Part shown: positions 4,346 to 31,922 of the stretch, piece by piece
How positions within the stretch are numbered: the stretch's first letter is position 1
Layout: every line of letters begins with the position of its first letter
IMG/VR virus record: IMGVR_UViG_3300042540_000578
Location: 1-40,374 of that record
Source of the DNA: a virus
Length of the DNA stretch: 40,374 bases
Direction: 5' to 3' (one strand)
Translations under genes and position numbers: made by a program
The notes under the pieces: model-generated
The model's input: only the letters and a program-made list of their open reading frames with translations
Database searches by the model: none
Told to the model about the DNA's origin: nothing

Positions 4346-5436
4346 CACCTGACCAGCTCGCCGACGACATCGACAACGCCGTCGCCCACTCCGTCGAAGT
4401 CGACGGCTCGCTCGACGTGAGCATCGACAAGGCCTTGGCTGCGATGCGGCAGGCCGCTGATGCGCTCGCCGCCGGGGCCTCTGCGTTGCACACGGCACGC
4501 CTCGCCCACGGGGCACAGGCCCGCCTGATCCGCGACGACCTGTCAGACACCGCGGCAATGGTCCGCGACCTCGAGGTGGCCGACACCTGGACGCCCCGCT
4601 TCCCCGGCGACGTGCGCCCCGGCACCATCCGCTGGGGTTGCGGCGGCGGCAACAACTCGCAGCGAGCCCTCGAACACGAAGCAGCAGCCGGCCGACCGAT
4701 GGGCGTCTGGCGCCTCTTCTACCAGATGTCGCAAAGTGCAGACGCTGTCGCGAAGTGCAAGGAAGCGATCGACAACGGGCGTGTCCCTTGGTTGTCGATG
4801 AAGCCCGGCACGTCATGGCAGAACGTCGCGAACGGCACCATCGACGCAGCCCTCCAAAACCTGTTCAACAGGCTCGACGCCCTCGGCGGACCCGTCTGGT
4901 TCACGATGCACCACGAGCCCGAGGGCGGCGGCGGCACCAACGCACCCGACGACCCCGGCGGCGCACCCGCCTGGCGCGCAATGCAGTCACGCATCCGCCA
5001 GGTGCTCGGCGCCAAGGGCACCACCAACATCGCCCTGCTGCCCTGCCTCATGGGCTACACCTGGAGCTCGAACTCCGGTCGCAACCCCGACGACTGGTGG
5101 GTCGACGGCATCTTCGACGCCTACGGCTTCGACATCTACCAGTCCACCGAATCAGGACCGGCACCCACCCGTAACGCGTCATGGACCCGCGCCGTCGCAT
5201 GGTGTGCTGAACGCGACATCCCGATGGCGATCGGCGAACTCGGCAACCGCGGCAACGACACACAGGCCGGCAACGAACTCCGCGAGGTGTACGAGTCGCT
5301 GCTGACCGTCGACTGCGTCGGCAGCGCCTACTTCGACACCGCACTCAACAGCGGCCCCGCCCCCTACACCCTCACCGGCGAACCGCTGCGTGTGTTCCGC
5401 GAACTCATGGCCGACCCCCGCAGCGTCACCCTGTGA
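4342..5436 (+). CDS. GH26-like glycoside hydrolase with helical N-terminus
   Basis: A 364-residue protein. Residues 1-80 are helical and Ala-rich. From about 85 (TPRFPGDVRPGTIRWG) a TIM-barrel-type glycoside hydrolase begins. It has the GH26-like WFTMHHEPEG segment, with E192 as likely acid/base, and MAIGELG near 300, with E299 as likely nucleophile. Aromatic substrate-side residues are plentiful (WSSN, DWWVDG, YGFDIYQ). GH26 enzymes cut beta-mannans and related polysaccharides. No signal peptide or membrane span is seen. It lies among replication genes, tightly coupled on both sides (ATGA, GTGA), whereas phage glycanases normally sit with tail or lysis genes. Substrate unknown; family call from motifs only. 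Confidence 0.7.
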   Translation: MTPDQLADDIDNAVAHSVEVDGSLDVSIDKALAAMRQAADALAAGASALHTARLAHGAQARLIRDDLSDTAAMVRDLEVADTWTPRFPGDVRPGTIRWGCGGGNNSQRALEHEAAAGRPMGVWRLFYQMSQSADAVAKCKEAIDNGRVPWLSMKPGTSWQNVANGTIDAALQNLFNRLDALGGPVWFTMHHEPEGGGGTNAPDDPGGAPAWRAMQSRIRQVLGAKGTTNIALLPCLMGYTWSSNSGRNPDDWWVDGIFDAYGFDIYQSTESGPAPTRNASWTRAVAWCAERDIPMAIGELGNRGNDTQAGNELREVYESLLTVDCVGSAYFDTALNSGPAPYTLTGEPLRVFRELMADPRSVTL

Positions 5437-5618
5437 GGCCGTACACGGACACCGCACGCGACGCCGTCGAGGACGCCCAGGACCTCGCAGAGGCCGACTA
5501 CTACACGGCACGTTCGGCGTACCGGCACGGCGACATGCGCCGCGCCGTCGGCCTCCAAATGTCAGGGCGCATCAACGCCGCAGCCGCACGCGCCGCCTAC
5601 ACGACATGGAGGCAGTGA
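5433..5618 (+). CDS. Hypothetical small helical protein, 61 aa
   Basis: GTG start in a GTGA overlap with the hydrolase gene; its TGA shares a base with the next ATG (TGATG). The chain is one or two amphipathic helices with many Tyr and Ala (DTARDAVEDAQDLAEADYY, RINAAAARAAYTTW). No family is recognised. Its place in an unbroken coupled series supports translation. Confidence 0.55.
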   Translation: MRPYTDTARDAVEDAQDLAEADYYTARSAYRHGDMRRAVGLQMSGRINAAAARAAYTTWRQ

Positions 5619-6379
5619 TGCCCCGAACCGTCGTCTGGTTCTCAGCCGGCGCCGCCAGCGCGGTCGCCGCCAAACTCACCATCGCCAGCCAGCCCGACGA
5701 CCTACACCTCGTCTACATCGATCCCGGCAGCGAACACCCCGACGCCGCCCGCTTCATCCACGACTGCGAGCAGTGGTTCGACCACCCCGTCGAAATCATC
5801 CGCAACGACAAGTACGTCGACCACTGGGACGTCGTCGAACGCACCCGCTACCTCGTCGGCCCCGGCGGCGCACGCTGCACCGGAGAGCTGAAGAAGAAGC
5901 CCCGCTACGCCTACCAGCGACCCGACGACCTCCAGGTGTTCGGCTACACGATCGACGAACGCCACCGAGCCGACAGGTTCCGCGAGCAGAACCCCGGCGT
6001 CGACCTCGCCACACCGCTCATCGACCACGGGCTCACTAAGGCCGACTGCCACGGCATGATCCTCAACGCCGGTATACAGCCCCACGCCATGTACCTGCTC
6101 GGGATGCCCGCAGCGAACTGTGTGGGGTGTGTGAAGGCGTCGTCGTTCTCGTACTGGCAGAAGATCCGCCGTCACTTCCCCGACGTCTACGAGCGCATGG
6201 CGCTACTCGAACGCGACATCGGCCACTCCATCAACAAGGACGCCGACGGCCCCGTGTTCCTCGACGAACTCGATCCCGAACGCGGCAAGAACGACTCGAT
6301 CCCCGACATGGACTGCTCACTCATGTGCGCCATCGCCGAGGACGTCATCGAACTCGGACCGACAAGGCGGACACCATGA
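5618..6379 (+). CDS. PAPS-reductase-like protein (PP-loop ATPase superfamily)
   Basis: A 253-residue protein of the phage family usually labelled phosphoadenosine phosphosulfate reductase. The N-terminal VVWFSAGAASAVAAKL is the PP-loop position (S9, G11, S14), followed by DPGSEHPDAARF, GGARCTGELKKK (C87) and NCVGCVKA (C168, C171). The family fold binds ATP or PAPS and activates a substrate by adenylation or sulfur chemistry. The loop is S-A-G-A-A-S rather than the SGGKDS of sulfurtransferases, so the reaction is uncertain. Phage members often occur among DNA metabolism genes, and DNA or nucleotide modification is a common guess. No dnd-type partner genes are visible. Confidence 0.75.
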   Translation: MPRTVVWFSAGAASAVAAKLTIASQPDDLHLVYIDPGSEHPDAARFIHDCEQWFDHPVEIIRNDKYVDHWDVVERTRYLVGPGGARCTGELKKKPRYAYQRPDDLQVFGYTIDERHRADRFREQNPGVDLATPLIDHGLTKADCHGMILNAGIQPHAMYLLGMPAANCVGCVKASSFSYWQKIRRHFPDVYERMALLERDIGHSINKDADGPVFLDELDPERGKNDSIPDMDCSLMCAIAEDVIELGPTRRTP

Positions 6380-6708
6380 CCGGTAGCGCGAAACGCAAAG
6401 GCGACAACGCCGAACGCGAAGCCGCCGCCCTACTCGCCGACCTCACCGGCTACCCGGTACGCCGCCAGCTCGGCGCAGGACGACTCGACGACGTCGGCGA
6501 CCTCGACGGCATCCCGAACACCGTCATCCAGGTCGCCGACTGGGCCGACGTCCTGCGTGCCGTCAGGGTGAAGCCCGTCGCTGCTGAATGGCAACGGGAC
6601 AACGCCGGGGCGACTTTCGCTGCGTCGATGATCCGAATGCGCGGCGGCGTCTGGCGAGTCGTCCAAACCCCCGAACAATTCTGCACCCTGCTCAGGGAGG
6701 CGACATGA
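6376..6708 (+). CDS. Holliday-junction-resolvase-like PD-(D/E)xK protein
   Basis: A 110-residue protein with ATGA overlaps on both sides. The layout K8-G9-x3-E13-R14-E15, RRQLGAG, DDVGDLDG (D42) and a following strand VIQV resembles archaeal/phage Hjc-type resolvases, which cut four-way junctions. The third catalytic position, normally E-x-K or Q-x-K at the end of that strand, reads Q52-V-A54, so the lysine is missing. Either a downstream residue (R66 or K68 in the RAVRVKP region) substitutes, or the protein binds without cutting. Its setting among recombination and replication genes fits a resolvase. Confidence 0.6.
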   Translation: MTGSAKRKGDNAEREAAALLADLTGYPVRRQLGAGRLDDVGDLDGIPNTVIQVADWADVLRAVRVKPVAAEWQRDNAGATFAASMIRMRGGVWRVVQTPEQFCTLLREAT

Positions 6709-7202
6709 GCAGCCCGAACCCCGGTTTCACCCACCCCGACGCCAACTGCCGCGGCGTTGACCCCGCACTGTTCTTCCCCGAACACGCCTCCAGCGAAAGA
6801 GAAGTCGCACGCGCCGTCAACATCTGCCGCCAATGCCCCACCGAGTGTCGTGAAGCCTGTCTCGAGCATGCGATCACCTGGCGCGAAGCCGGCATCTGGG
6901 GCGCCACCACCGGCAGACAGCGCCGCACCATGCGAACCAAGAGGACACGCGACATCCCCCCCGACCTCCGACACCGACCCGGCTGCGCCGACCACTGCCT
7001 CGCCGAACTCAACGCATCCGACCACAAGTGGATCAGCACCCGCGAACTCGTCAACCGCACCGGCTACTCAGCGGCCAGCATCAACACCACCCTCCGCGGA
7101 ATGGTGACCAGCGGTGCTGTTGAACGGGCACAAGGCACCGCCGGCCGCCCCGCCTACTGGCGCACACCCAAGACGACGGCGGATGTGGGGGTGACGGCGT
7201 GA
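6705..7202 (+). CDS. WhiB-like protein fused to a C-terminal winged helix
   Basis: A 165-residue protein, ATGA overlap upstream. Residues 10-75 are WhiB-like: C15, D19-P-A-L-F-F-P25, C41-R-Q-C44, then C48 and C52, and G-I-W-G-A before a basic GRQRR. WhiB proteins bind a 4Fe-4S cluster and act with the main sigma factor. Canonical spacing is CxxCx5C with GIWGG; here C44 to C52 holds seven residues with an extra Cys, and the last Gly is Ala. Residues 105-155 form a second domain resembling a winged helix (WISTRELVNRTGYSAASIN, VERAQGTAGRPAYW). It is probably a transcription regulator of the phage or host. Confidence 0.7.
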   Translation: MSSPNPGFTHPDANCRGVDPALFFPEHASSEREVARAVNICRQCPTECREACLEHAITWREAGIWGATTGRQRRTMRTKRTRDIPPDLRHRPGCADHCLAELNASDHKWISTRELVNRTGYSAASINTTLRGMVTSGAVERAQGTAGRPAYWRTPKTTADVGVTA

Positions 7203-11159: not shown

Positions 11160-11405
11160 ATGCCCACGCACCCCGACCCCCAACCCATCTCCCGCACCGA
11201 ACCCAACGACCCGCCGCTGCTGTGGGACGACCTCACCGAGTGGATCCGCGGGCTCGTCATCGACCGCCAGGTCGACCACGACCTCATCTGGGACGTCGCC
11301 GCCGTCAACGGGCTCATGCCCGCCCGCGATGGTTTCCCCGACGGCACGGTGCCGGCCGAGTTGATGTTGATGGTGGTCGAGGGTGAAGCGTTGGCCGAGA
11401 CATGA
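11160..11405 (+). CDS. Hypothetical protein, 81 aa
   Basis: ATG start after a 33-base gap without a clear ribosome site. The protein is acidic, with Trp-rich helices (LLWDDLTEWIRGLVIDRQVDHDLIWDVAAV). The pattern resembles small actinophage early proteins of unknown role. Its stop overlaps the next ATG by four bases (ATGA), which supports translation as part of the operon. Confidence 0.55.
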   Translation: MPTHPDPQPISRTEPNDPPLLWDDLTEWIRGLVIDRQVDHDLIWDVAAVNGLMPARDGFPDGTVPAELMLMVVEGEALAET

Positions 11406-11611
11406 GCCGCGCCGAGTACCACCGTGAATGGCGTGCCCGTCACGGGGCACGCACCGGACAGATCGGCCGGCCCGTCACCCAGCCATGCGGCACCGTCGCC
11501 GCCTACAAACGACACCGCAAGAACGGCGAACAACCTTGCGGCCCGTGTCTCGACGCGTGGAACGCCAAGCAGCGCGAGATGTACCAGGCGCGAAAGTTGA
11601 AGTCGAAATAG
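11402..11611 (+). CDS. Small basic Cys-containing actinophage protein, 69 aa
   Basis: ATGA overlap with the gene before. The core PCGTVAAYKRHRKNGEQPCGPCLDAW matches a very common small actinophage protein with a C-G-T/E-x2-A-x-x-R-H...P-C-x-x-C pattern; the three Cys may bind zinc. Flanking helices are strongly basic (RAEYHREWRARH, AKQREMYQARKLKSK), which suggests nucleic-acid binding. It is the last gene of the early operon before the repeat-rich gap. Confidence 0.65.
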   Translation: MSRAEYHREWRARHGARTGQIGRPVTQPCGTVAAYKRHRKNGEQPCGPCLDAWNAKQREMYQARKLKSK

Positions 11612-11612
11612 A

Positions 11613-11666
11613 CCCCATAATTTTGGGTCAGATTCAACTCTGAAAAAAGCCCCATAATTTTGGGTC
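11613..11666. repeat. Two 17-bp AT-rich direct repeats, each partly palindromic
   Basis: CCCCATAATTTTGGGTC occurs exactly at 11613-11629 and 11650-11666 (period 37). Each copy can fold (CCC...GGG around ATAATTTT), and between them TCAGA/TCTGA (11628-11632, 11639-11643) can form another small stem. A-runs follow both. The stretch is strikingly AT-rich for this genome. It could be a DNA-unwinding element of an origin, tandem terminators or regulator sites. TAATTT preceded at 15-16 bases by TTGAAG or TTCAAC also gives two weak promoter-like pairs. Confidence 0.7.
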
Positions 11667-11704
11667 CGAAAAAAATCTGGAAATGTGTGTGGGCTCGCCG
11701 ACCC

Positions 11705-11814
11705 TTTCCCACCTCGCCGACCTTTCCCACCGGATTGGTGGGAATAGAGGCTTTCCCACCTTTCCCACCGGATTGGTGGGAATAGAGGCTTTCCCACCTT
11801 TCCCACCTTTCCCA
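11705..11814. repeat. Iteron-like array: seven TTTCCCA copies with two perfect hairpins
   Basis: TTTCCCA occurs at 11705, 11723, 11752, 11761, 11790, 11799 and 11808. A 38-bp unit starting at 11721 and 11759 is directly repeated for at least 30 identical bases; each unit holds a perfect 8-bp stem TTCCCACC-GGATT-GGTGGGAA (11724-11744 and 11762-11782). A degenerate third copy runs into the start of the HNH gene. No coding frame is convincing across 11612-11827. The array next to the AT-rich repeats resembles an iteron-type origin or a multi-site operator. Confidence 0.75.
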
Positions 11815-11827
11815 GTAGGTTGGTGGA

Positions 11828-12139
11828 ATGGCATGGCAGGGTGCACGCGGACTGCCACGAGACTGGGCCCGACGGCGGCGAGCTGTCCTGGAACGCGACG
11901 ACTACCGATGCCGGTCGTGTGGACTGCACGCGCCAGGTAATCCGCCGAGGTCCGCGACGGATCGCCGCGGTGTTCTCGAGGTTGACCACGTGGGCGACCG
12001 GTCAAACCACGCGCTCGAGAATCTGCGGACCCTGTGCCATCGATGCCACGGCCGGCGAACGGCCGCGCAAGGTAACGCGGCGCAGAGCTCGCGCCGCGGC
12101 TACCGCCGGCCGCTCGAGGATCATCCTGGGATATTGTGA
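11828..12139 (+). CDS. HNH endonuclease
   Basis: A 103-residue protein with a classic HNH domain: YRCRSCG (first CxxC), EVDHVGDRSNHALENLRTLC with the catalytic DH and the conserved N, then CHRCHGRRTAAQG. Small HNH proteins of this type often lie near phage terminases and can be needed for cos cleavage or packaging. Here the terminase is about 2 kb downstream, separated by the Gp88 gene and a noncoding block. ATG at 11828 follows the repeat array directly, with only a weak GGTGGA ribosome site. Confidence 0.85.
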   Translation: MAWQGARGLPRDWARRRRAVLERDDYRCRSCGLHAPGNPPRSATDRRGVLEVDHVGDRSNHALENLRTLCHRCHGRRTAAQGNAAQSSRRGYRRPLEDHPGIL

Positions 12140-14236: not shown

Positions 14237-14596
14237 ATGGCTCGCAACTATCCGGCGCCTGCCGGTCTTGATGTGGATGGATTGTCCCTGTGGGACGACA
14301 TCACTGCGATGTACGACCTTCGTCCTGACGAGTTGCGCGTCTTGGGTGCTGCGTGCTTTGAGGTTGATCTGATCTCTCGGATGCAGGTTCAGTCGATCAG
14401 TGAGAATCTGATTGTGACGGGCTCGCAGGGCCAGCCGGTGGCGAATCCGCTGGTGCAGGAGTTGCGCCAGCACCGTTCGACGTTGCGTGGCTTGTTGGGC
14501 CAGTTGAAGTTGCCTGATGAGGATGGTCGGGCTGCGAGTTCGAGGTCGGAGCAGGCTAGGAGCGCGGCGAACGCTCGCTGGCAACGCGGCGCGTGA
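14237..14596 (+). CDS. terS: Terminase small subunit (P27-like)
   Basis: A 119-residue protein; ATG with GGAAGGAG 8 bases upstream. The helical chain LWDDITAMYDLRPDELRVLGAACFEVDLISRM, followed by NPLVQELRQHRSTLRGLLGQLKLPDED and a basic Ser/Ala tail (SARSAANARW pattern), matches small terminase subunits of the P27 type. These bind the packaging start and bring the large subunit to it. The large terminase follows after one intervening gene, with 4-base overlaps between them. Confidence 0.8.
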   Translation: MARNYPAPAGLDVDGLSLWDDITAMYDLRPDELRVLGAACFEVDLISRMQVQSISENLIVTGSQGQPVANPLVQELRQHRSTLRGLLGQLKLPDEDGRAASSRSEQARSAANARWQRGA

Positions 14597-14958
14597 TTCT
14601 CCACCGTCATCGCCGTCAGAACGGGCCGGGGTCACATTTGGGTGGCCGCACGCTGGGTGCTGATGCCGCAGTTGGGACATTGCCTGATGTGCCGTCGTGG
14701 TTCGGCGAAGGGTCATGTATGTCGAGTCATATCGACATGACGATCTCGGACTCCGAACTGACCGACGTGGAGATCATGGATCGACGCGTGCTGTGTCAGC
14801 GGTGCCCGGTGCTGGAGCAGTGCCAGGAAGATGCCGAGCGGCTCTTCCGTGAGCACCGGTCGCTGGCAGGTATGCAGGGTGGGCTTTCCGAGCGGGATCT
14901 TCGCCGTAGATGGCGATCCGAGCGGGACGTTAGCCGTAGCTGGCGACGTGGCGCGTAA
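14593..14958 (+). CDS. WhiB-like protein inside the terminase module
   Basis: A 121-residue protein, GTG start in a GTGA overlap with the small terminase. C42, C68, C71 and C77 follow the WhiB ligand pattern (one Cys, then CxxCx5C in LCQRCPVLEQC), and G-M-Q-G-G stands where GIWGG normally lies, followed by SERDLRRRW. It should bind a 4Fe-4S cluster and regulate transcription. The DPDLFFP segment of usual WhiB proteins is missing. The C-terminus repeats a 10-residue unit (SERDLRRRWR, SERDVSRSWR). Position between the terminase subunits suggests a late-gene regulator. Confidence 0.65.
   Translation: MILHRHRRQNGPGSHLGGRTLGADAAVGTLPDVPSWFGEGSCMSSHIDMTISDSELTDVEIMDRRVLCQRCPVLEQCQEDAERLFREHRSLAGMQGGLSERDLRRRWRSERDVSRSWRRGA
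14887..14946 (+). repeat. 30-bp tandem duplication at the end of the WhiB-like gene
   Basis: Units 14887-14916 and 14917-14946 are identical at 26 of 30 positions and in frame. They repeat a basic 10-residue segment of the WhiB-like protein. The duplication looks recent and lies directly before the large terminase start at 14948. Confidence 0.8.
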
Positions 14959-19441: not shown

Positions 19442-20353
19442 GTGGCGAACACATTCCTGAAGCCCGAGGTCATCAACCGGACGGCACTGAAGCTGCTCGA
19501 GCGTGAGGTCGTCGTGCCTCGCACCGTGTGGAACTACGCCGACGCGGAGTTCCGAGGCGCGAAGAACGACACGGTGACCCTGCGTCTGCCGGCCGTCGCG
19601 ACCTCGCGCGAGTACGACTTCCGCAACAACCGGTCCAGCCCGATCGTCGTGGACGACCTCACCGAAACCTCGGTCCCGGTGGTGCTCGACAACGACATCT
19701 ACCACGCTGCGGCGATCACCGATGAGCAGCTCACGCTCGACATCGTGGACTTCGCCGAGCAGGTGCTCGTCCCCCAGGTCAAGGGCATCGCCCGCGGCCT
19801 CGAGGATCTGATCGTCACCACGATGGAGACGGCCACCTACGGCACCACCATCAACATCGCCGACTCCTCGGACGCCACCTGGACCGCTCTGGTGCAGGCC
19901 CGCCAGGCACTGAACGACGCCAACGTGCCCCGCGAGGGACGCGTCCTGCTCGTCGGTTCCGACGTGGAGGCGGAGATGCTGCTGGACTCCAAGTTCAACC
20001 GCGTCGACTCCGCGGGTGACGGCATCGCCACCTCGGCGCTGCGCGAGGCGACCATCGCCCGCCTGGCCGGGTTCACCATCGTCGGCTCCAACGCCCTCGA
20101 CCCGGAGACGGCCATCGCGTTCCACCCGACGGCGTTCGCGTTCGTGAACGTCGCCCCCGTGGTCCCCGACGGTGTCACCTACGGGTCGCGGCTGTCGGAG
20201 ATGGGTCTGGCGATGCGCTGGATCCGCGACTACGACGCGCTGTACCTGCGTGACCGTTCCGTCGTGTCCAGCTTCGCTGGTTGCACCTCCGTCGAGGACG
20301 ACGGCAGCACCAACGTCCGCGCGGTGAAGATCAACTTCAACGGCGCATCCTGA
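19442..20353 (+). CDS. Major capsid protein (HK97 fold)
   Basis: A 303-residue protein; GTG start with a strong AAGGAGGT ribosome site (about 19430), fitting high expression. Start ANTFLKPEVINRTALKLLERE, then the N-arm to E-loop region (VTLRLPAVATSREYDFRNN), DNDIYHAAAITDEQLTLDIVDFAEQVLVP, and later VLLVGSDVEAEMLLD and AGFTIVGSNALDPETAIAFHPTAF, match capsid proteins of P22-coat-like or HK97 type in actinophages. No prohead protease gene is visible. It is the most abundant virion protein and a candidate substrate of the glycosyltransferases downstream. Confidence 0.85.
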   Translation: MANTFLKPEVINRTALKLLEREVVVPRTVWNYADAEFRGAKNDTVTLRLPAVATSREYDFRNNRSSPIVVDDLTETSVPVVLDNDIYHAAAITDEQLTLDIVDFAEQVLVPQVKGIARGLEDLIVTTMETATYGTTINIADSSDATWTALVQARQALNDANVPREGRVLLVGSDVEAEMLLDSKFNRVDSAGDGIATSALREATIARLAGFTIVGSNALDPETAIAFHPTAFAFVNVAPVVPDGVTYGSRLSEMGLAMRWIRDYDALYLRDRSVVSSFAGCTSVEDDGSTNVRAVKINFNGAS

Positions 20354-20814
20354 TGAGCTTGCCCGCGCTCGCGTCGCTCAACGATCTCCTGCCCCTGGTG
20401 GGCAGCGTGACCGATGACGGCCGGGCGCGGGCACTGCTCGCCTACGCGTCGGCCTTGATCCGCACCGAAGCCGGTGAGGACTGGGTCGACACCGACGGCA
20501 ACCTCGATGGTGTCCCCGACATCATCAAGATGATCTGCTGCAAGGTGGTGGAACGGTCCCTGTCGAACCCGATGGGGCTCACCGCTGAAGCAGTCGTGAA
20601 CTATCGGGCCGAGTACGGCAACTCGTCGTCCGATCTGTACCTGACGAAGCAGGAACGCCGGCTGGTCCGCAAGGCCGCTGGCAGCGTGCTGATCGGGTCG
20701 GTCGAACTGCAAACCCCGTACCGCAAGTACGACGCCGCCGACGTCTACATGACGGTCGACAACGGCGGCGAAGAGTTGCCGATGGGTCCGTGGCCGGAAC
20801 CGTCGGACGGGTAG
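20353..20814 (+). CDS. Head-tail connector / adaptor (gp6/gp15-like)
   Basis: A 153-residue protein, TGATG overlap with the capsid stop. The helical pattern LASLNDLLPLVGSVTDDGRARALLAYASALIRTEAGEDW, then PDIIKMICCKVVERSLSNPMG, and a strand-rich end, is that of head-tail adaptors of HK97 gp6 type, which form a ring below the portal. Its last 25 bases overlap the first glycosyltransferase gene. Confidence 0.75.
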   Translation: MSLPALASLNDLLPLVGSVTDDGRARALLAYASALIRTEAGEDWVDTDGNLDGVPDIIKMICCKVVERSLSNPMGLTAEAVVNYRAEYGNSSSDLYLTKQERRLVRKAAGSVLIGSVELQTPYRKYDAADVYMTVDNGGEELPMGPWPEPSDG

Positions 20815-21452
20815 CGATCATCGTCCCCATGTTGGGACGGCCACATACGGTTGCGCCGCTGGTTGAGTCGATCGTGGCGACGACGCCCGACCCCCACATC
20901 ATTTTCGGTTGCACCGTCGGTGATGTCGAGGTGATCAAAGAGGTCGAAGGGTTCGATCACTTTGAGGTTGGCGGGCCGATGCCAGGCGATTATGCCCGCA
21001 AGATCAACATGGGCTACCAGCTCACTGACGAGCCGTTGTTGTTCACGGGGGCGTGTGACATCCGGTTCCTTCCCGGCTGGTTTGAGGCTGCCACGGCGCG
21101 TCTCGACGGGACGGTCGGTGTGGTCGGCACGAACGATCTTGGGTCGCGGCGGGTGATGGCTGGCGATCACGCCACACACTCGCTGGTCACCAGGGACTAC
21201 GTCGACCGGTTCGGCACGATTGACGAGCCGGGTGTGGTTCTCCATGAGGGCTACCACCATGAGTTCGTGGACGACGAGTTCGTTCAGACAGCGATGCACC
21301 GCGGCATGTGGGCGTTCGCCGAGGATTCGCATGTCGAGCATCTTCATCCGAACTGGAATAAGGCGCCGTCGGATCGGATGTACCGGATGCAAGGCAGAAG
21401 AATGCGTCTCGGTAAGCGGGTCTACGCCGAAAGGAAGCACCTGTGGACGTGA
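20790..21452 (+). CDS. Glycosyltransferase, GT-A fold (first of five)
   Basis: A 220-residue protein. VAIIVPMLGRPHTVAPLVESI is the nucleotide-sugar binding start of GT2-like enzymes; GACDIRFLPGWFEAA is at the DxD position, here D-I-R. HEGYHHEFVDDEF and EHLHPNWNKAP are acceptor-side motifs rich in His. It should transfer sugar from a nucleotide donor, probably in the cytoplasm since no membrane span is seen. GTG at 20790 overlaps the adaptor by 25 bases. It lies in a head-to-tail gene series, so a virion protein is a plausible acceptor. Confidence 0.75.
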   Translation: MAGTVGRVAIIVPMLGRPHTVAPLVESIVATTPDPHIIFGCTVGDVEVIKEVEGFDHFEVGGPMPGDYARKINMGYQLTDEPLLFTGACDIRFLPGWFEAATARLDGTVGVVGTNDLGSRRVMAGDHATHSLVTRDYVDRFGTIDEPGVVLHEGYHHEFVDDEFVQTAMHRGMWAFAEDSHVEHLHPNWNKAPSDRMYRMQGRRMRLGKRVYAERKHLWT

Positions 21453-22048
21453 CGGTCGCTGTAGCCACCTTCGGTGACGTTTCGTGGCGTCATCTGGCCG
21501 AGCAGCGTGCGATCCCGTCGGCTGAAGCCCTCGGTGTGCCGGTGGTGACGTGTCACGCCGACACGCTCCACGACGCGCGCAACTGGGCGCTCGCCCAGGT
21601 CGACACCGAGTGGGTCTGCCACCTCGACGCCGACGACGAGCTCGAACCGGGCTACTTCGAAGCCATGGCCGCTGGCACAGCGGATGTGCGTGCGCCGTCG
21701 GTGCGGTACGTCCGCAGGCACCGTCTCCGCGAGCCCGGCATGCCCGCAGTCGCCGGCCACACCCACCAGTGTGTCGCCGAGTGCCTGGTCGACGGCAACT
21801 GGCTGGTCGTCGGTTCGCTGGTGCGCGCCGATCTTGTTCGTGAGGTTGGCGGGTGGCGCGATTTCGACTGGTCTGAGGACTGGGATCTGTGGCTCCGCTG
21901 CCACCTTGCCGGGGCTTCGTTCGAGGCGATCCCAGAGGCTGTGTACCGGGCGCATGTGCGTCCTGACTCCCGTAACCGGGGGGCGTCTCGCGAGAAGCGT
22001 CTGGCGTCTCACAGGGCGATCGCAGCGGCGAACGGGGTGTCGGCGTGA
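21443..22048 (+). CDS. Glycosyltransferase family 2-like (second of five)
   Basis: A 201-residue protein with AAGGAAG before its GTG. DVTVAVATFGDVSW gives the first strand; VCHLDADDELEPGYFEAMA holds the metal-binding DxD; DFDWSEDWDLWLRCHLAGA is the catalytic W-S-E-D region of GT2 enzymes; PEAVYRAHVRPDSRN closes the fold. All key elements of a short soluble glycosyltransferase are present. The overlaps on both sides (10 and 4 bases) keep it translationally coupled to its neighbours. Confidence 0.85.
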   Translation: MDVTVAVATFGDVSWRHLAEQRAIPSAEALGVPVVTCHADTLHDARNWALAQVDTEWVCHLDADDELEPGYFEAMAAGTADVRAPSVRYVRRHRLREPGMPAVAGHTHQCVAECLVDGNWLVVGSLVRADLVREVGGWRDFDWSEDWDLWLRCHLAGASFEAIPEAVYRAHVRPDSRNRGASREKRLASHRAIAAANGVSA

Positions 22049-22704
22049 TCCTGTTGGTGATGACCGACGGTCGCCTTGACTGCATTGAGCAGACGATTGA
22101 GTCGGCCCGCGAGAACCTGTTGGGCCAGGTGACCTACAAGGTCATCCACGACGACACCGGGGACGAGGCTCACCGCGATTACCTGCGCGGAGCGTTCCCC
22201 GATTTCGAAGTGATTGGTCAGCCGACCCGCCAGGGGTTCGGTGGGGCGATCCGGTCGGCGTGGAGCCATCTGCGGGGCCGCAACGAGAAGTTCGTGTTCC
22301 ACCTCGAGGACGACTTCACGTTCAACGAGCCGTTGCCGCTGTACATGATGGAACGGGTGTTGGATCGGAACCCGTCGCTGGTGCAGTTGGCGTTGCGACG
22401 GCAGCCGTGGAACGACGCCGAACGTGCCGCAGGCGGCATCGTTGAGCAGCATCCTGACGATTACACCGAGTGTTCCGACGGCATCTCCGAATGGTTGGAG
22501 CATCGCCGGTTTTTTACGACGAACCCGAGCGTGTATCGGACGACGTTGATCGCGAAGGGTTGGCCTGAGGGCGACCATTCGGAGGGCGTGTTCGGGATCA
22601 AGTTGTGTGAGAACCCGGCGACGAGGTTCGGGTACTGGGGGCGTCGCACTGATCCTCCGAAGGTGCATCACATCGGCGACCACAGAGCCGGGACGGGGTA
22701 CTGA
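22045..22704 (+). CDS. Glycosyltransferase family 2-like (third of five)
   Basis: A 219-residue protein, GTGA overlap. MILLVMTDGRLDCIEQTIESA is the first strand and helix; KFVFHLEDDFTFNEPLPLY is the E-D-D metal site; the C-terminal WPEGDHSEGVFGIKLCENP and GDHRAGTGY parts probably bind the acceptor and close the active site. This type occurs in several phages as a single gene. Here it is in a five-gene block. Confidence 0.8.
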   Translation: MILLVMTDGRLDCIEQTIESARENLLGQVTYKVIHDDTGDEAHRDYLRGAFPDFEVIGQPTRQGFGGAIRSAWSHLRGRNEKFVFHLEDDFTFNEPLPLYMMERVLDRNPSLVQLALRRQPWNDAERAAGGIVEQHPDDYTECSDGISEWLEHRRFFTTNPSVYRTTLIAKGWPEGDHSEGVFGIKLCENPATRFGYWGRRTDPPKVHHIGDHRAGTGY

Positions 22705-23459
22705 TGATCACTGCCGGTATCAGCATGGTGCGCGACGAGGCCGACATCATCGAAACGACCGTCAGGCACATGCTCACCCAAGTCGACATCGTGATCGTCG
22801 CCGACAACCGGAGCGTGGACGGCACTCGCGAGATCCTTGACGGTCTGCCGGTGCATGTGATCGATGACCCTGAGCGCGGCTACTTCCAGTCCGAGAAGAT
22901 GACCCGCCTCGCCCACCTCGCACGGCTCGAGTACCGGGCAGACTGGGTTGTTCCGTTCGACGCCGACGAGTGGTGGTTCCACCCCGACGGGCGCATCGGT
23001 GACGTGCTCGAAACGGTCGAGCATTGGCCGATCGTGACCGCCGAACTCTACGACCACATCGCGACCGGCGACGATCTTCCTGGCATGTCTCCTGTGGCTG
23101 CGATGTCGTGGCGAAGGGCTACGCCGGCACCGTTGCCGAAGGTGGCGTGCCGCACCGCAGCGGATCTCGTCATCCACCAGGGCAACCACGGCGCGAACTA
23201 CACCGACCCGAAGCCGGTCACCGCCGGCCTCCAGGTGCGGCACTTCCCGTACCGGTCCCCGGAGCAGTTCGCCCGCAAAGCGATCAACGGCGCCGAAGCC
23301 TACGCGGCAACGGATCTCCCTGAGGATATGGGGAAGCATTGGCGTGACTACGGTGCGCTCGCAGCGGCGCACGGTGAAGAGGCGTTGCATGACGTGTTCC
23401 GCGACTGGTTCTGGGTGGCGACCCCGACACCGGATCTGGTGTTCGACCCCGTCCTGTGA
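22704..23459 (+). CDS. Glycosyltransferase family 2-like (fourth of five)
   Basis: A 251-residue protein, TGATG overlap. ITAGISMVRDEADIIETTVRHML is the typical N-terminus of the M-V-R-D/N-E-x-x-x-I glycosyltransferases; VIVADNRSVDGTREIL and DWVVPFDADEWWFHPDG give the nucleotide and metal (DAD) sites. Later parts (HQGNHGANYTDPKP, VRHFPYRSPEQFARKAING) match the acceptor half of the same group. Likely a soluble enzyme; sugar and target unknown. Confidence 0.85.
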   Translation: MITAGISMVRDEADIIETTVRHMLTQVDIVIVADNRSVDGTREILDGLPVHVIDDPERGYFQSEKMTRLAHLARLEYRADWVVPFDADEWWFHPDGRIGDVLETVEHWPIVTAELYDHIATGDDLPGMSPVAAMSWRRATPAPLPKVACRTAADLVIHQGNHGANYTDPKPVTAGLQVRHFPYRSPEQFARKAINGAEAYAATDLPEDMGKHWRDYGALAAAHGEEALHDVFRDWFWVATPTPDLVFDPVL

Positions 23460-24112
23460 TCTCGGTCATTGTCCCGTGGCAACCTGGGTGCGAGTACCGG
23501 GAACGCAACTGGCAGTACCTCCGACCGTTCTGGGAACGGTTCGGTGAAGTCATCGAAGGTGTCTGCGCCGGCCCGTGGTCGAAAGGCTCTGCGGTACGAG
23601 ACGGGCTCTCGAGGGCGCAGGGCGACAAGGTCATCGTCGCTGACGCTGATGTGTGGGTCGATCCCACCGATGCGTTGGAAGCGGACACCGCGTGGGCGGT
23701 CCCGCACCTGAAAGTGCATCGCCTGTCGGACGAGTCGACGGTGCGGATGATCGGCGGGGAACCGTGGCGCAGCCTGCCGTTGGATCGCAGCAACCGGCGC
23801 GACAGCCGCCCGTACAACGGGCAGTGCGGCGGCGGTGTCGTCGTGCTCAACCGGTCAGTCCTTGAGTCATGCCTGCCCGACCCACGGTTCGTTGGGTGGG
23901 GGCATGAGGACGTGGCGTGGGACGCCGCCCTGACCTCCCTGTTCGGCCCTCCATGGCGAGGGAACGCCGATCTCGTCCACCTGTGGCACCCAGCCCAGCC
24001 ACGCATCGACAGGGCCACAGGATCGCACCAGAGCAAACACCTGATGCGCCGCTACCTGCACGCCGCACGCCGACCTGACCTGATACGCGGAATTCTGATG
24101 GAGGTGTCGTGA
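23456..24112 (+). CDS. Glycosyltransferase with galactosyltransferase-like GWGxED motif (fifth of five)
   Basis: A 218-residue protein, GTGA overlaps at both ends. SVIVPWQPGCEYRERNWQYL starts the fold; KVIVADADVWVDP is the DxD site; QCGGGVVVLNRSVL and RFVGWGHEDVAWD match the N-terminal galactosyltransferase-like GWGxED motif that contributes the catalytic acid. It is the last glycosyltransferase before head-closure genes resume. The five share a general GT-A layout but differ clearly in motifs, so they probably make different linkages. Confidence 0.85.
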   Translation: MISVIVPWQPGCEYRERNWQYLRPFWERFGEVIEGVCAGPWSKGSAVRDGLSRAQGDKVIVADADVWVDPTDALEADTAWAVPHLKVHRLSDESTVRMIGGEPWRSLPLDRSNRRDSRPYNGQCGGGVVVLNRSVLESCLPDPRFVGWGHEDVAWDAALTSLFGPPWRGNADLVHLWHPAQPRIDRATGSHQSKHLMRRYLHAARRPDLIRGILMEVS

Positions 24113-24444
24113 GCTTCGAATCGTTCATGGTTCACGACCTGACCATCGTCCGTCCCGGCACCGCCACCGGCCGCGGTTCCGATGTGGTGAAGGACTGGGC
24201 GACAGCGACCGATACCGCGGCGACCGGTTGGATCGCCCAGGCGAATGCTGACGATGTACGCGACGACCGTGCCGGCGACGTGTCCGAATGGACGTTGCAA
24301 ACAGCGGCGGCGACCGACATCGCTCCGGGTGACCGGGTGGTGTGGGGCGACCTGACGTTCGATGTGGTCGGCCGGCCGAACCCGGCGTGGACCCCGCGAG
24401 GCGAGCATCACATCGAGGCCCGGTTGCGGGTTGTGGAGGGCTGA
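24109..24444 (+). CDS. Head-closure (stopper) protein
   Basis: A 111-residue beta-rich protein, GTG in a GTGA overlap. The pattern FMVHDLTIVRPGTATG, ATGWIAQANADDV, a turn at IAPGDRVVWGDLTFDVVGRPNPAWTP, and a last strand HHIEARLRVVEG is that of SPP1 gp16 / HK97 gp7-type stoppers, which close the DNA channel. Its position after the adaptor (apart from the glycosyltransferases) and before the tail terminator supports the call. Confidence 0.75.
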   Translation: MSFESFMVHDLTIVRPGTATGRGSDVVKDWATATDTAATGWIAQANADDVRDDRAGDVSEWTLQTAAATDIAPGDRVVWGDLTFDVVGRPNPAWTPRGEHHIEARLRVVEG

Positions 24445-24725
24445 TGGCTGAGAACCCGATCCCCCGGCAGATCCCACCCGAGTACTACCTGACTGCCCGC
24501 AAGATCCTTGTGTTGCCGACCGTTGAGGCTCGGCTGAACAAGATCGCAGAGAAGGTCAAGCGGCGTGCCGGCGCTGGTCATGAGGTCAAGAACGACCGCA
24601 CGCGGGACCGTGTCCGAGTCCAGGTGTTCACCGCGTCGAACACAGCGAAGGCTGCCGAGGCGTCCGACAAGACGTTGAGCAAGGCGTTCGCTGCCGAGCG
24701 CACCACCCCGAGGCGTCCGCTGTGA
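24444..24725 (+). CDS. Neck / head-tail joining protein, small
   Basis: A 93-residue protein, TGATG overlap upstream and GTGA downstream. A helical start (PEYYLTARKILVLPTVEARLNKIAEKVKRRA) is followed by strands and a short tail (SKAFAAERTTPRRPL). The order and the central strand pair suggest a reduced form of the HK97 gp10 neck family, shorter than the usual 120-150 residues. The evidence is mainly position. Confidence 0.6.
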   Translation: MAENPIPRQIPPEYYLTARKILVLPTVEARLNKIAEKVKRRAGAGHEVKNDRTRDRVRVQVFTASNTAKAAEASDKTLSKAFAAERTTPRRPL

Positions 24726-25138
24726 ACGACCCGGTCCTGTTTCCCGACACCACCGAGGTGGTCATCAACGGGCTGGTCGATGTGCTTCCCGACGACGGCT
24801 ACGACATCGGCCTCTACTCGACTGTGCCGAACCCTCGCCCCGCCGAGTTCGTTGTCATCGAACGCGTCGGCGGTCCCCGAGCGAACATCGCTCAGGACTC
24901 AGCTCATCTCGCTGTTGACTGCTGGTCAACCAGCGACGTTGACGCACACAACCTCGCCCAGATCGTCCGGGCTCGCATCGCAGCGATGCAAGGAACAGTC
25001 ATCGATGACCAGGCCGTCGGCCGAGTCGATGAACTGTCAGGCCCGTCACGCAACCCGGACCCTGTGTCCTCACAGGACCGGTACAGCTTTCAGGTGGCCG
25101 TCGCTGTCAGGGGTTCAACCCTCGACACCGGTTCCTGA
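24722..25138 (+). CDS. Tail terminator protein
   Basis: A 138-residue alpha/beta protein, GTG in a GTGA overlap. PDTTEVVINGLVDVLPDDGYDIGLYSTVPNPRPAEFVVIERVGG, then AVDCWSTSDVDAHNLAQIVRARIAAMQG and RYSFQVAVAVRG, matches terminators of lambda gpU type, which form the ring ending tail growth. The major tail protein follows after a structured gap. No oddities. Confidence 0.75.
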   Translation: MNDPVLFPDTTEVVINGLVDVLPDDGYDIGLYSTVPNPRPAEFVVIERVGGPRANIAQDSAHLAVDCWSTSDVDAHNLAQIVRARIAAMQGTVIDDQAVGRVDELSGPSRNPDPVSSQDRYSFQVAVAVRGSTLDTGS

Positions 25139-25221: not shown

Positions 25222-25263
25222 CCGGCGCGCCTGAGCGCGTGCCGGCTGACCTTGGAGGTCAAA

Positions 25264-25839
25264 GTGGCAGGAACATCCGAAAACGTCCGGATCTGGACGA
25301 GCGCCGACGTGTACACGGCGCCCGAGGGCACGACCCTCCCGACCAACATCGCTTCGGCGCTCAACGCGGCGTTCGACCCGGTCGGCTACATCAGCCAGGA
25401 CGACGCGATCTCGCTCGAGTTCTCCTCGGACGACACCGATCACTACGCCTACGGCTCGGTCTACATCCGCAAGACCAGCATCAAGGCCAAGACGACCCTG
25501 TCGTTCACCGCCCTCGAGGACACCGACATCGTCTACCAGCTGGCCTACCCCGGCTCCGACTCGACCACCGCCACCGGCATCACCACCCGCACGACCCGAC
25601 CGAAGAACCTCGGTCTGGCCGTGGTCGCGATGGTCGTGGAGCTGACCGACGGCACCATCACCAAGCGTCTCGCGATCCCGCGTGCCCAGGTGACGATCGC
25701 CGGTTCGGCGTCGCTGTCGGACAACGAGATGGCTGGCGTCCCGATGGTCGTGGACATGCTCGGCACCACCGACGGTGGAGGCGACACCTACTTCTCCATC
25801 GAGATCACCGACGACCCCGGAGCGATCGCTCCGTCCTGA
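25264..25839 (+). CDS. Major tail protein
   Basis: A 191-residue beta-rich protein; GTG at 25264 with GGAGGTCAAA immediately upstream. AGTSENVRIWTSADVYTAPEGTTLP, then FDPVGYISQDDAISLEFSSDDTDHYAYGSVYIRK, matches major tail tube proteins of actinophages, with the usual KAKTTLSFTALEDTDIVYQLAYPG core. No C-terminal Ig domain is added. It polymerises around the tape measure. It is followed by a hairpin that may set its transcript level. Confidence 0.85.
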   Translation: MAGTSENVRIWTSADVYTAPEGTTLPTNIASALNAAFDPVGYISQDDAISLEFSSDDTDHYAYGSVYIRKTSIKAKTTLSFTALEDTDIVYQLAYPGSDSTTATGITTRTTRPKNLGLAVVAMVVELTDGTITKRLAIPRAQVTIAGSASLSDNEMAGVPMVVDMLGTTDGGGDTYFSIEITDDPGAIAPS

Positions 25840-29600: not shown

Positions 29601-31455
29601 CGGCGACGCCTACAAGACGGCCCGCAAGAGTCTCAAGGGTCTGCCCGCGGATCTGGATTTGGCGGCGGCGTCGCTCGGCAAGTTGAAGCCCCGCCAGCAG
29701 CGCGCCGTCGAGGGTGTGTTGGCGTTGGGTGAGGCGACGACCGACTACCTCGCGACGTTGATCGAGTCCGGCAAGACCGACGCCGAGGTGCGCGACGAGG
29801 CGAACCGGTTGCGCGACGAGTACGTCAAGACGTTCCGCCAGCTCGGCCTCAACGAAGAGCAGATCAACAAGTACCTGGAAGCGATGGGGCTCACCCCCGA
29901 GCAGGTTGAGACTGCGATCGAAGTGTCGGGCATCGAGGAGTCGCGGGCGAAGCTCGAGGCGTATGCGTCGCTGTTGGAGGGGAAGATCCCCGGCAGCGTG
30001 GCTGCCAGTGTCATCGCGTCGATTGAAGCGGGCGACATCGAGGGTGCAGCGTCGCAGTTGGCCCAGTTCGCTGCGACGAACCCGATTGATATTCCGATCG
30101 GGGTCACCGTCGACCTCCCGGCGATCACCACTGCCCAGGACGCGCTTGACCAGCTTGAGCGCGACACCTTGGATATCCCTGAGTCGTTCGACCGGTTCCG
30201 TGCTGCGTTGGGCGGGTACACCGACGCTGAGACACGCGGGTTGCAGGCGTTGTCGGCGGCTGCGGATGCGGCGCAGGCTGATATCGCCGAGTCGATCGCC
30301 GCGGGCGACTACGACGAGGCCCGCCGGTTGGCTGCGGAGTACCGCACTGAGTTCGAGAAGATCCTGACGTCGTTCGGGTTGAGTGAGGAAGCCGCCAAGG
30401 GGTACATGAGCGAGCTCCTTGGTCTGGATGAGATCACGGTCGAGAACTCGATCGAGCTCGCTGGGGTCGAGGAGGCGTTGTCGCTGCTCACGATCTACAA
30501 GGGTGTGCTCGACAACCTTGAGTCGTTCGAGTTGGCCGACCAGTTGGCGATCTCCGACCTTCTCGCTGCCGGCGACTTTGAGGGCGCGAAGGAACTGATC
30601 CAGAGGGAGCTCGGCGAGGCTCGCACGGAGATCCTGGGCGACGGGATTGTGGTGCCGGTGGCGGCTGATCCGCAGGAAGGTATCGCGATCGTCGGCGAGT
30701 GGAAGACCAGTGAGGAAACGGGTCAGCCGGTGTTGGTCCCTGCGACGGCGACCACGGAGCTGGCTGATCAGGTGATGGCTGTGTGGCGCACCGATGAGAA
30801 CGGCAACCTTGTGTTGGTGCCGGTCGGGGCTGACACTGGGCGTGCGGAGGCGACGGTTGGTGGAACCCGCGCCGGGATTGAGAACGCGCCGCCGGCAGAG
30901 GTGCCGGTCGGTATTGACGACAGCGAGGCTCGCTCCGAGGCCGCAGCCCTGTTCTTCGACATTGGGCGGTTGGCGCCGATCATGCGGGTGGGGATCCAGT
31001 TCGCTGTCAACGCTGGCGGAGCTTTCGGCGACGCAGTGAAGGACGGCGCCGATCGGTTGGCTCAATCCGCTGTTGGTGGCCGCGGCAATTACGGCTACGG
31101 GTTCAACCCGAACGACATCGACAACAACCCGCGCACCCCGTTCGCGACCGGCGGCTACGTCTCGGGGCCGGGTACGGGCACGTCGGACAGCATCGCTGCC
31201 AGCTTGTCGAACGGCGAGTTTGTGATGCGCTCATCCGCTGTCCGCAGTCTCGGTGTCGGGTTCCTCGACAAGTTGAACAAGGGGTATGTGCAGGGGTTCG
31301 CGATGGGCGGGCTCGTCGGCGACACACCGGCACCGTCGCCGAGCATCGGTGGCACGAAGGTTGATTACACGGTGGTTGAGGCGAAGTCTCGGCCGACTGC
31401 GGAGGATCTGGTGCGGGTGACGAACAGTGCCGTGTTCTTGGGGGCGTCGGTATGA
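26623..31455 (+). CDS. Tape measure protein
   Basis: A 1610-residue protein; GTG at 26623 with AAGGAGG 6 bases upstream. LAVAYVQLLPSFDKFYTRM opens it; residues about 120-330 match the TP901-type tape measure core (TSAVTVPLAGIGFLSSRAALDFESG, ELGSQSGVPIDDLMEFTRTIADLG). A hydrophobic Ala/Gly region around 450-560 is the probable membrane-active part; helical repeats follow. The C-terminus has the common FATGGYVSGPGTGTSDSI and LSNGEFVMR segments. Length sets tail length: by the usual 0.15 nm per residue, about 240 nm. The frame has no interruption. Confidence 0.92.
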   Translation: MAAGNDLAVAYVQLLPSFDKFYTRMRAEASANATKFEKYGSDAGKAWGKGFAANAQAIPKSTGSAPVGGGASGASAAASALAAGVGAELGAAEGVAETAGINTGAAFAAGLSSKSAAISGLGTALTSAVTVPLAGIGFLSSRAALDFESGFTGVRKTTNATEEQFALLEEQIRATAREIPVTTEELSKIAELGSQSGVPIDDLMEFTRTIADLGVSTNIVAEDAALLLAQFASITQLPTDQFDNLGATIVDLGNKLATTEDRIVLLGQRLAATGTQIGLSQQEILGFSAALSSVGLQPEAAGTAFSRVFQKINDAVTTGNAELKQFADLAGLTNDEFRSLYETDPAALIERVVLGLSEVAESGSTTPILEDLSLIDARIRDSLQRLAASDNVIGDAIDIANTAFPDNTALAVEAEKRYATAESKLQIFLNRLKDAGIDIGEAILPAVVGVAEALQPVIAGFGGIASAVANLPGPLNEIVVGFGAIAIAGGPLLALVGRIGTGFASAGGYFTKSAAEATAAAAATKAAAVEQAAAQAAVARSQRATTGGFITSGPVSGGATAGAAAAGEKVAKANDTAAKSTGKLRGAIGGLNPAVLGLTAAVGAGIAIYEAWSSAKAEAAAATDSLADALVGEGDALNSTTTAVRDQLSDLGVEGDLSKAGLSVRGVSEELRRVPGEAEKFRRAFQNIGEDFDGENPLTRPFGGTSGSFDDAIKAAEDAGVQIPESIRKIGEAVDEGAISPDAGRELINAIVDADKATESATTSIEGNFNDLKNAASDFGIDLDPFVDRFNAADGDLEKQRQVIDQVLAKYPELAPIIGRVADEASVAQDSLGGLSQGFASSAQGASSLERQLGRVDAMLKLSSGSFQAARSAAEAYLSAIENSSAFDNIVASSLAAGEAIKGLWEGGGFRQSEEERQQLAREAAQEQDRLATEARDAATDIGNLTDRMRALNPQLEILRINSEAAASAGNAFRESIENSSSLDDIAGSVISLGDAYKTARKSLKGLPADLDLAAASLGKLKPRQQRAVEGVLALGEATTDYLATLIESGKTDAEVRDEANRLRDEYVKTFRQLGLNEEQINKYLEAMGLTPEQVETAIEVSGIEESRAKLEAYASLLEGKIPGSVAASVIASIEAGDIEGAASQLAQFAATNPIDIPIGVTVDLPAITTAQDALDQLERDTLDIPESFDRFRAALGGYTDAETRGLQALSAAADAAQADIAESIAAGDYDEARRLAAEYRTEFEKILTSFGLSEEAAKGYMSELLGLDEITVENSIELAGVEEALSLLTIYKGVLDNLESFELADQLAISDLLAAGDFEGAKELIQRELGEARTEILGDGIVVPVAADPQEGIAIVGEWKTSEETGQPVLVPATATTELADQVMAVWRTDENGNLVLVPVGADTGRAEATVGGTRAGIENAPPAEVPVGIDDSEARSEAAALFFDIGRLAPIMRVGIQFAVNAGGAFGDAVKDGADRLAQSAVGGRGNYGYGFNPNDIDNNPRTPFATGGYVSGPGTGTSDSIAASLSNGEFVMRSSAVRSLGVGFLDKLNKGYVQGFAMGGLVGDTPAPSPSIGGTKVDYTVVEAKSRPTAEDLVRVTNSAVFLGASV

Positions 31456-31922
31456 GTTTCGACGCTGACCCGTACATGGACGTGACGATCGCGGGGAACG
31501 ATCTGTCGACCGATTCGTGGTTCTGTTTGAACCCGCAGGACTTGTTGTCGTTCGCGCCGCAACGCTCGGACAACGTGCCGCTCGCCGGGGTCAACGGTGT
31601 GCTGCCACGCCCGACCTACGACGACCAGCAGACCATCGACCTCCAGTTCGTTGTCACCGGCAACCACATCCCTGACGGTGACACCTATGCGAACGCTGCG
31701 GAGCGGTTGGCTGCGGTGAAGCGTCTGTTCGCCGCCGCGTACTTCCGTGCGACCCGCGACGCCGACGGGTGCATCGTCTGCAACGTCATCGACGTGGACG
31801 GCTCGGAGTACGAGGGCCGCGTGCAGGTCGGGCCTCCGAAGTTCTCCGAGGGCTTGTTTGAGTGCAACGCGGTGATGTCGGTGACGATCGTTGACGGCGA
31901 ACTCGCGCCGACCGGTTCCTGA
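31452..31922 (+). CDS. Distal tail protein-like minor tail protein
   Basis: A 156-residue beta-rich protein, ATGA overlap with the tape measure. DPYMDVTIAGNDLSTDSWFCLNP, then RPTYDDQQTIDLQFVVTGNHI, AAERLAAVKRLFAAAYF and YEGRVQVGPPKFSEGLFECNAVMSVTIV, follows the strand-helix-strand layout of distal tail (Dit) N-domains, which form the ring between tail tube and hub. The position right after the tape measure is canonical. It lacks the galectin-like second half of larger Dit proteins. Confidence 0.7.
   Translation: MSFDADPYMDVTIAGNDLSTDSWFCLNPQDLLSFAPQRSDNVPLAGVNGVLPRPTYDDQQTIDLQFVVTGNHIPDGDTYANAAERLAAVKRLFAAAYFRATRDADGCIVCNVIDVDGSEYEGRVQVGPPKFSEGLFECNAVMSVTIVDGELAPTGS

Follow-up and report, generated by a model that had tools for sequence, protein, structure and literature searches.

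A conserved five-glycosyltransferase cassette among phage connector genes coincides with C-terminal serine on capsid and tail-tube proteins

Why would a phage carry five glycosyltransferase (GT) genes in a row among the genes that join its head to its tail? The question is raised by a soil-type phage, the IMG/VR virus record IMGVR_UViG_3300042540_000578, the whole of which (40,374 bp, 40.4 kb) is called the window here. The original prediction, made from the window alone, took the enzymes to place a multi-sugar decoration on capsid or tail. Our analysis supports this idea through the association of a terminal Ser with the enzymes on two virion proteins, through the kinds of phages whose virions are glycosylated, and through the homology of the fifth enzyme. 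The five genes are most probably a virion-glycosylation cassette, and its predicted product is a multi-sugar O-glycan on the C-terminal Ser of the major capsid protein (MCP, ..NGAS) and the major tail (tube) protein (MTP, ..IAPS).

The gene order in the window is terminase-portal-protease-scaffold-MCP-adaptor-[five GTs]-Hc1-neck-terminator-MTP-tape. The five open reading frames (ORFs), numbered GT1 to GT5 from 5' to 3', lie on the + strand, as do all the structural genes given below, and span 20790-24112. GT1 (20790..21452), GT2 (21443..22048), GT3 (22045..22704), GT4 (22704..23459), and GT5 (23456..24112) are bordered upstream by the head-tail adaptor gene Ad1 (20353..20814; phrog_137, 2.8e-15) and downstream by the head-closure gene Hc1 (24109..24444; phrog_501, 2.8e-14). 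The overlaps are 25 nt (adaptor/GT1), 10 nt (GT1/GT2), 4 nt (GT2/GT3), 1 nt (GT3/GT4), 4 nt (GT4/GT5), and 4 nt (GT5/Hc1). The five GT genes between adaptor and head closure, their ORF ends, the adaptor start at 20353, and the linkage to structural genes by short overlaps (1-25 nt) were thus all correctly given in the original prediction. The GC content at third codon positions of the GT ORFs (0.76-0.82) is of the coding type. The block is real and not a set of chance ORFs, since the identical five genes in identical order are found again in tens of contigs.

The C-termini of the virion proteins should be noted. S/T-rich C-terminal extensions were looked for and none was found; the terminal Ser emerged from reading the C-termini themselves. 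The window MCP, a P22-like coat protein (19442..20353; PF11651, 2.3e-19; phrog_283, 4.7e-62), ends in ..NFNGAS with the last Ser codon at 20348-20350, and the MTP (25252..25839, start codon uncertain; phrog_117, 4.1e-31) ends in ..GAIAPS with the last Ser codon at 25834-25836. We infer that these two residues are the acceptors. In GT-bearing (GT+) phages, MCP and MTP end in Ser, mostly as -GS or -AS, whereas those of GT-free (GT-) relatives end in other residues. After dereplication at 90% MCP identity, the MCP has a C-terminal Ser in 24/26 GT+ and 4/29 GT- loci (p 2e-9), the MTP in 13/13 and 3/26 (p 7e-8), and both proteins in 13/13 and 2/26, respectively. When loci were sorted instead by the MCP-MTP distance, with GT calls entering only where no MTP lay within reach, MCP Ser was found in 17/18 loci with a long slot versus 5/26 of the others (p 1e-6). 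Because nearly all cassette phages have Ser-ended MCP and tail-tube proteins, the sugars very probably coat the particle.

Several Ser-ended loci initially called GT-free turned out to hold other GTs at this position, namely GT4-type, Stealth-like, and CgeB-type enzymes, the last with a PIG-L deacetylase. Locus L012, at first undecided, has an end of ..MAAS; other parts of its 40 kb record encode two GT4-type enzymes and a homologue of GT5, whereas neither family occurs in the twenty further virus records searched with it or in five GT-free isolates. In 22 further loci, some of which are the same contig or near copies, the coat was missed by the MCP profile, and the gene after the scaffold is Ser-ended in 20 (..NTTGS, ..NLSGS, ..PFQAS); these coats have no BLAST match to the first coat family. 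Connector proteins of GT+ loci share the ending in a minority of cases (adaptor 5/25, Hc1 5/14, terminator 5/13), versus 0/20 for the terminator in GT- loci, consistent with surface exposure of these proteins, which is presumed. In the window, the tail terminator (24722..25138; phrog_123, 5.5e-25), ending in ..DTGS, and an uncharacterised tail-region protein without a family match (31452..31922), ending in ..APTGS like its sisters (..PTGS), are possible further acceptors.

Could the terminal Ser be a quirk of lineage or composition, or the trace of another C-terminal event such as processing, with the GTs acting on another virion protein or residue? Many loci indeed share ancestry, and a few Ser-ended coats without a GT were seen. 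However, when the last 20 residues are left out of the MCP tree, the GT state switches 11 times along it, and its supported branches offer 7 independent contrasts, of which about 6 are concordant and none is opposed (median p 0.03). The tag is also found again in coat families that have no BLAST match to one another. In loci anchored on GT1, the internal proteins seldom or never end in Ser (terminase 1/25, portal 0/30, protease 1/30, scaffold 0/29). The literature further places glycans at these very C-termini in Che8-type phages (PMC12363180, PMC12619734). Even with the untagged MCP of phage Myrna, described below, counted in its favour, we regard this explanation as unlikely.

The isolates with known virion glycosylation provide the closest comparison. 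The original study of Che8, Corndog, and Myrna is reportedly that of Freeman et al. 2023. Two later papers state that phage-encoded GTs glycosylate these virions and that the capsid and tail-tube proteins bear the glycans at their C-termini (PMC12363180, PMC12619734), and together with a third they describe the modification as a shield against antibody (PMC12363180, PMC12619734, PMC11600133). The MCP/MTP pair ends in ..KTGS/..SDGS in Che8, ..LVGS/..KGDS in Firecracker (a close Corndog relative, compared in its place), ..ETAS/..EAGS in Brujita, and ..PDPS/..AAGS in Neville. All four phages carry GTs including a GT5 homologue, whereas phiC31 and TM4 are GT-free and have no Ser on MCP or MTP. The Ser signature therefore coincides with the glycan site located experimentally in Che8-type phages, as presented in those papers. 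The GT5 homologues are Che8 gp109 (profile score 7e-32), Firecracker gp35 (2e-36), Brujita gp73 (1e-40), and Neville gp122; Gordonia phage Neville gp120 is a homologue of GT3. The Corndogvirus also has its own O-methyltransferase and GT genes among the head genes, from portal to protease. The systems differ in that the window has five other GT-A genes in a fixed order between adaptor and stopper, while Che8 has its GTs at the far end of the genome. No counterpart of GT1 is seen in isolate phages; tblastn found no match to it among 50,697 phage records.

A number of observations weigh against the cassette acting on the terminal Ser. A prediction with a threshold of 85% was fixed before the GT1-anchored loci were annotated; the MTP (Ser in 11/12) and the pooled set reached it, but the MCP (13/16, 81%) fell short, one of its misses (L125) being a doubtful hit. 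The MCP of Myrna, reported as glycosylated in the sources above, ends in ..RKA, and among the Myrna proteins examined only the neighbouring gp98 (..GGS) and gp115 end in Ser. The GT described there as essential is gp110 in Che8 and gp38 in Corndog; Che8 gp110 has no clear homologue in the window, the best likeness being a weak match of GT3 (15 bits, hhalign 10%). Some GT+ loci are without Ser (L171, L180, L062), end in Thr (L055, L177), or end in ..GSA (L156). Conversely, Ser occurs without a detected GT in L060, a 5 kb fragment, and L032, and on a single protein in L035 and L048 (MCP) and L054 (MTP). Two of these cassette phages deserve a remark. L180, in which neither the MCP (5250-6110) nor the MTP (11334-11879) has a terminal Ser, has an Hc1 ending in ..QDAS, and in L171 the MCP lacks the residue; a different acceptor or a decayed module is possible in both.

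As for the enzymes, GT2 (PF13632, 1.4e-10; DxD in HLDADDE), GT3 (PF00535, 8.6e-6), and GT4 (Glyco_tranf_2_4, PF13704, 2.2e-13; DADE motif) match Pfam GT family 2 above the cut-off, whereas GT1 and GT5 score only below it. PHROGs label all five as glycosyl- or galactosyltransferases (GT1 phrog_14945, 8.7e-6; GT3 phrog_3047 'galactosyl transferase', 1.8e-12), GT5 weakly (0.016). The AlphaFold (AF2) models of GT1 and GT5 have a predicted local distance difference test score (pLDDT) of 94 (94.3 for GT1) and a predicted TM-score (pTM) of 0.91, and their best PDB matches are GT-A glycosyltransferases (Foldseek top for GT1: 6yv7, E 2e-8), so that both are GT-A fold enzymes as modelled. Acidic metal motifs are seen in GT2-GT5; GT1 has ACDI at the position of ADDL in its relatives. 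GT5 resembles the beta-1,4-galactosyltransferases (CAZy GT7) in its profile match to B4GalT1 (E 1e-5), in the DAD and GWGxED motifs, and in fold, but the identity is about 15% and the TM-score 0.55.

The GT1 model also resembles the wall-teichoic-acid glycosyltransferases TarP and RmlT, though at 10-14% identity and with acceptors in the wall; we know of no tie of either enzyme to coat C-termini. In another explanation, which the original prediction named as its alternative, the target is the host surface late in infection. Wall teichoic acid, arabinogalactan, or another glycan of the wall would be modified, so that superinfection is blocked or progeny are released from debris that bears receptors. 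Soluble enzymes of this type exist, and phage GTs that act on the host surface are well documented. However, this explanation does not predict a terminal Ser on MCP and MTP. None of GT1-GT5 has a transmembrane segment (maximum 19-residue hydropathy 0.73-1.21), no polyprenyl-carrier or flippase gene as in GtrABS-like systems was recognised among the scanned ORFs or adjoining the cassette, and many lineages place the cassette inside the connector genes. A host-surface target is thus quite improbable.

Modification of phage DNA at hydroxymethylated bases, like that by TET-GT or T-even systems, was considered as well, since some viruses are reported to encode GTs that attach diverse glycans to DNA as hypermodifications (Pyle 2024, as cited in PMC12619734). 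The thymidylate synthase/hydroxymethylase family (PF00303) was found in 0/26 cassette records with a positive control, and TET/JBP (PF12851) also in 0/26, a weak result as its control was silent. Except for a PAPS-reductase-like domain, the Pfam hits of the window include no base-modification gene, and the Ser tag would be left unexplained. DNA as the target was set aside as very improbable.

If virion glycosylation is the function, the five GTs would be translated late in infection alongside the head and tail genes, and as soluble enzymes they would draw on sugar nucleotides of the host cytoplasm. One enzyme would initiate glycosylation of the peptide and the remaining ones lengthen the chain, building a multi-sugar O-glycan on the terminal Ser of the high-copy outer proteins MCP and MTP; some connector and tail proteins with like endings are perhaps modified as well. 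GT5 is our best guess for the initiator because it is the sole family common to the four isolate lineages examined, a guess weakened by several GT+ loci with no GT5 in the available sequence. Five GTs need not equal five sugars. The benefit would lie in shielding, altered adsorption, or altered stability. The methyltransferase that many relatives have probably caps one of the sugars. The original prediction of a perhaps complete O-glycan pathway is not borne out so far: genes for the synthesis of sugar nucleotides were not recognised in the window, which also lacks the methyltransferase of those relatives.

The insertion site was compared with that of relatives. Streptomyces phage Attoomi and the mycobacteriophages LeBron and Kumao are isolates whose capsids are related to that of the window, and in them the stopper/head-closure gene directly follows the adaptor. 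One small ORF separates the two in Arthrobacter phage Reedo, an isolate related through its portal; the cultured relatives examined are thus without the insert at this junction. In IMG/VR relatives, on the other hand, the cassette reads GT1-GT2-GT3-[methyltransferase]-GT4-GT5. The GT1 profile matched 149 viral loci, 80 of which were kept; 54 loci have at least four of the five GTs, 46 of the 54 in canonical order, and 21 have an S-adenosylmethionine-dependent methyltransferase between GT3 and GT4, as detected with a hidden Markov model. The close sister L002 retains this gene (8277-8879 of L002), whereas the window and L004 are without it. By this comparison the window cassette appears to have lost its methyltransferase, which suggests a different glycan end group in these two phages. 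Glycans of other phages may be tailored by deacetylation, as PIG-L type de-N-acetylases adjoin GTs in the head-tail slot of L020 (3542-4210) and L055 (9566-10579).

The coat families that carry the cassette have no mutual BLAST similarity, and its insertion point varies among the connector genes. On a concatenated GT tree, the coat-family label switches 17 times or more, where 3 switches would be the minimum, with 'unknown coat' counted as a label; the cassette therefore moves between virion types. The five-gene block, for which the original prediction had proposed a comparison of homologues, thus travels as a unit across coat families, presumably because the acceptor would be merely a short C-terminal tag. 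A partial counterpart is found in Caudovirales GX15bay (MK557849, mangrove soil virome; annotated by similarity only), which has GT2, GT3, and GT4 homologues in order and a nearby methyltransferase gene; its cluster differs in lying before the terminase with other GTs and in having no GT1 or GT5 match. A genome scan with the single GT1 sequence gave no match, and the GT1 profile gave a Parafrankia soli contig and four contigs of metagenome-assembled genomes, two of them distant. The former (L123; strain NRRL B-16219, NZ_MAXA01000047.1) has all five GT genes of the cassette alongside those for terminase, portal, and MCP, and is probably a prophage in a cultured strain, hence an experimental handle. 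The hosts of the cassette phages are probably Actinomycetota, because of the related isolates and this contig.

Virion glycosylation is already known (Freeman 2023, as presented in citing papers), prior reports describing it in a few mycobacteriophages and tying it to weaker antibody recognition (PMC12363180, PMC12619734, PMC11600133). What appears to be new is the cassette, along with its passage between coat families and the C-terminal Ser signature. We lean toward the broader view of a portable sugar-coating module in phages, probably mainly of Actinomycetota, in which a five-GT cassette, often with a methyltransferase, swaps between unrelated virion types via a convergently evolved C-terminal -GS/-AS tag on capsid, tail-tube, and some connector proteins. 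If so, the last residue of the coat genes reveals virion glycosylation. Should the tag prove real, GT genes together with the C-termini of coat and tail-tube proteins would be enough to predict which phages are glycosylated, and the acceptor can be tested in a laboratory phage through a single codon change; glycan coats would be far more widespread and modular than so far known, and the cassettes would supply small soluble enzymes for attaching multi-sugar chains to the C-termini of proteins in the bacterial cytoplasm.

Other features of the window are as follows. The neck protein gene (24441..24725; phrog_387, 1.8e-12) begins with an ATG that overlaps the Hc1 stop. The PAPS-reductase-like domain lies at 5390-6379 (PF01507, 2.7e-5); its chemistry might be that of sulfur metabolism, or be queuosine-like or DNA phosphorothioation-like. 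Two WhiB-like regulators are encoded at 6588-7202 and 14593-14958, one fused to a MarR-type domain and one immediately before the terminase. The GC skew switches sign at about 14000, where the early region gives way to the block of late genes.

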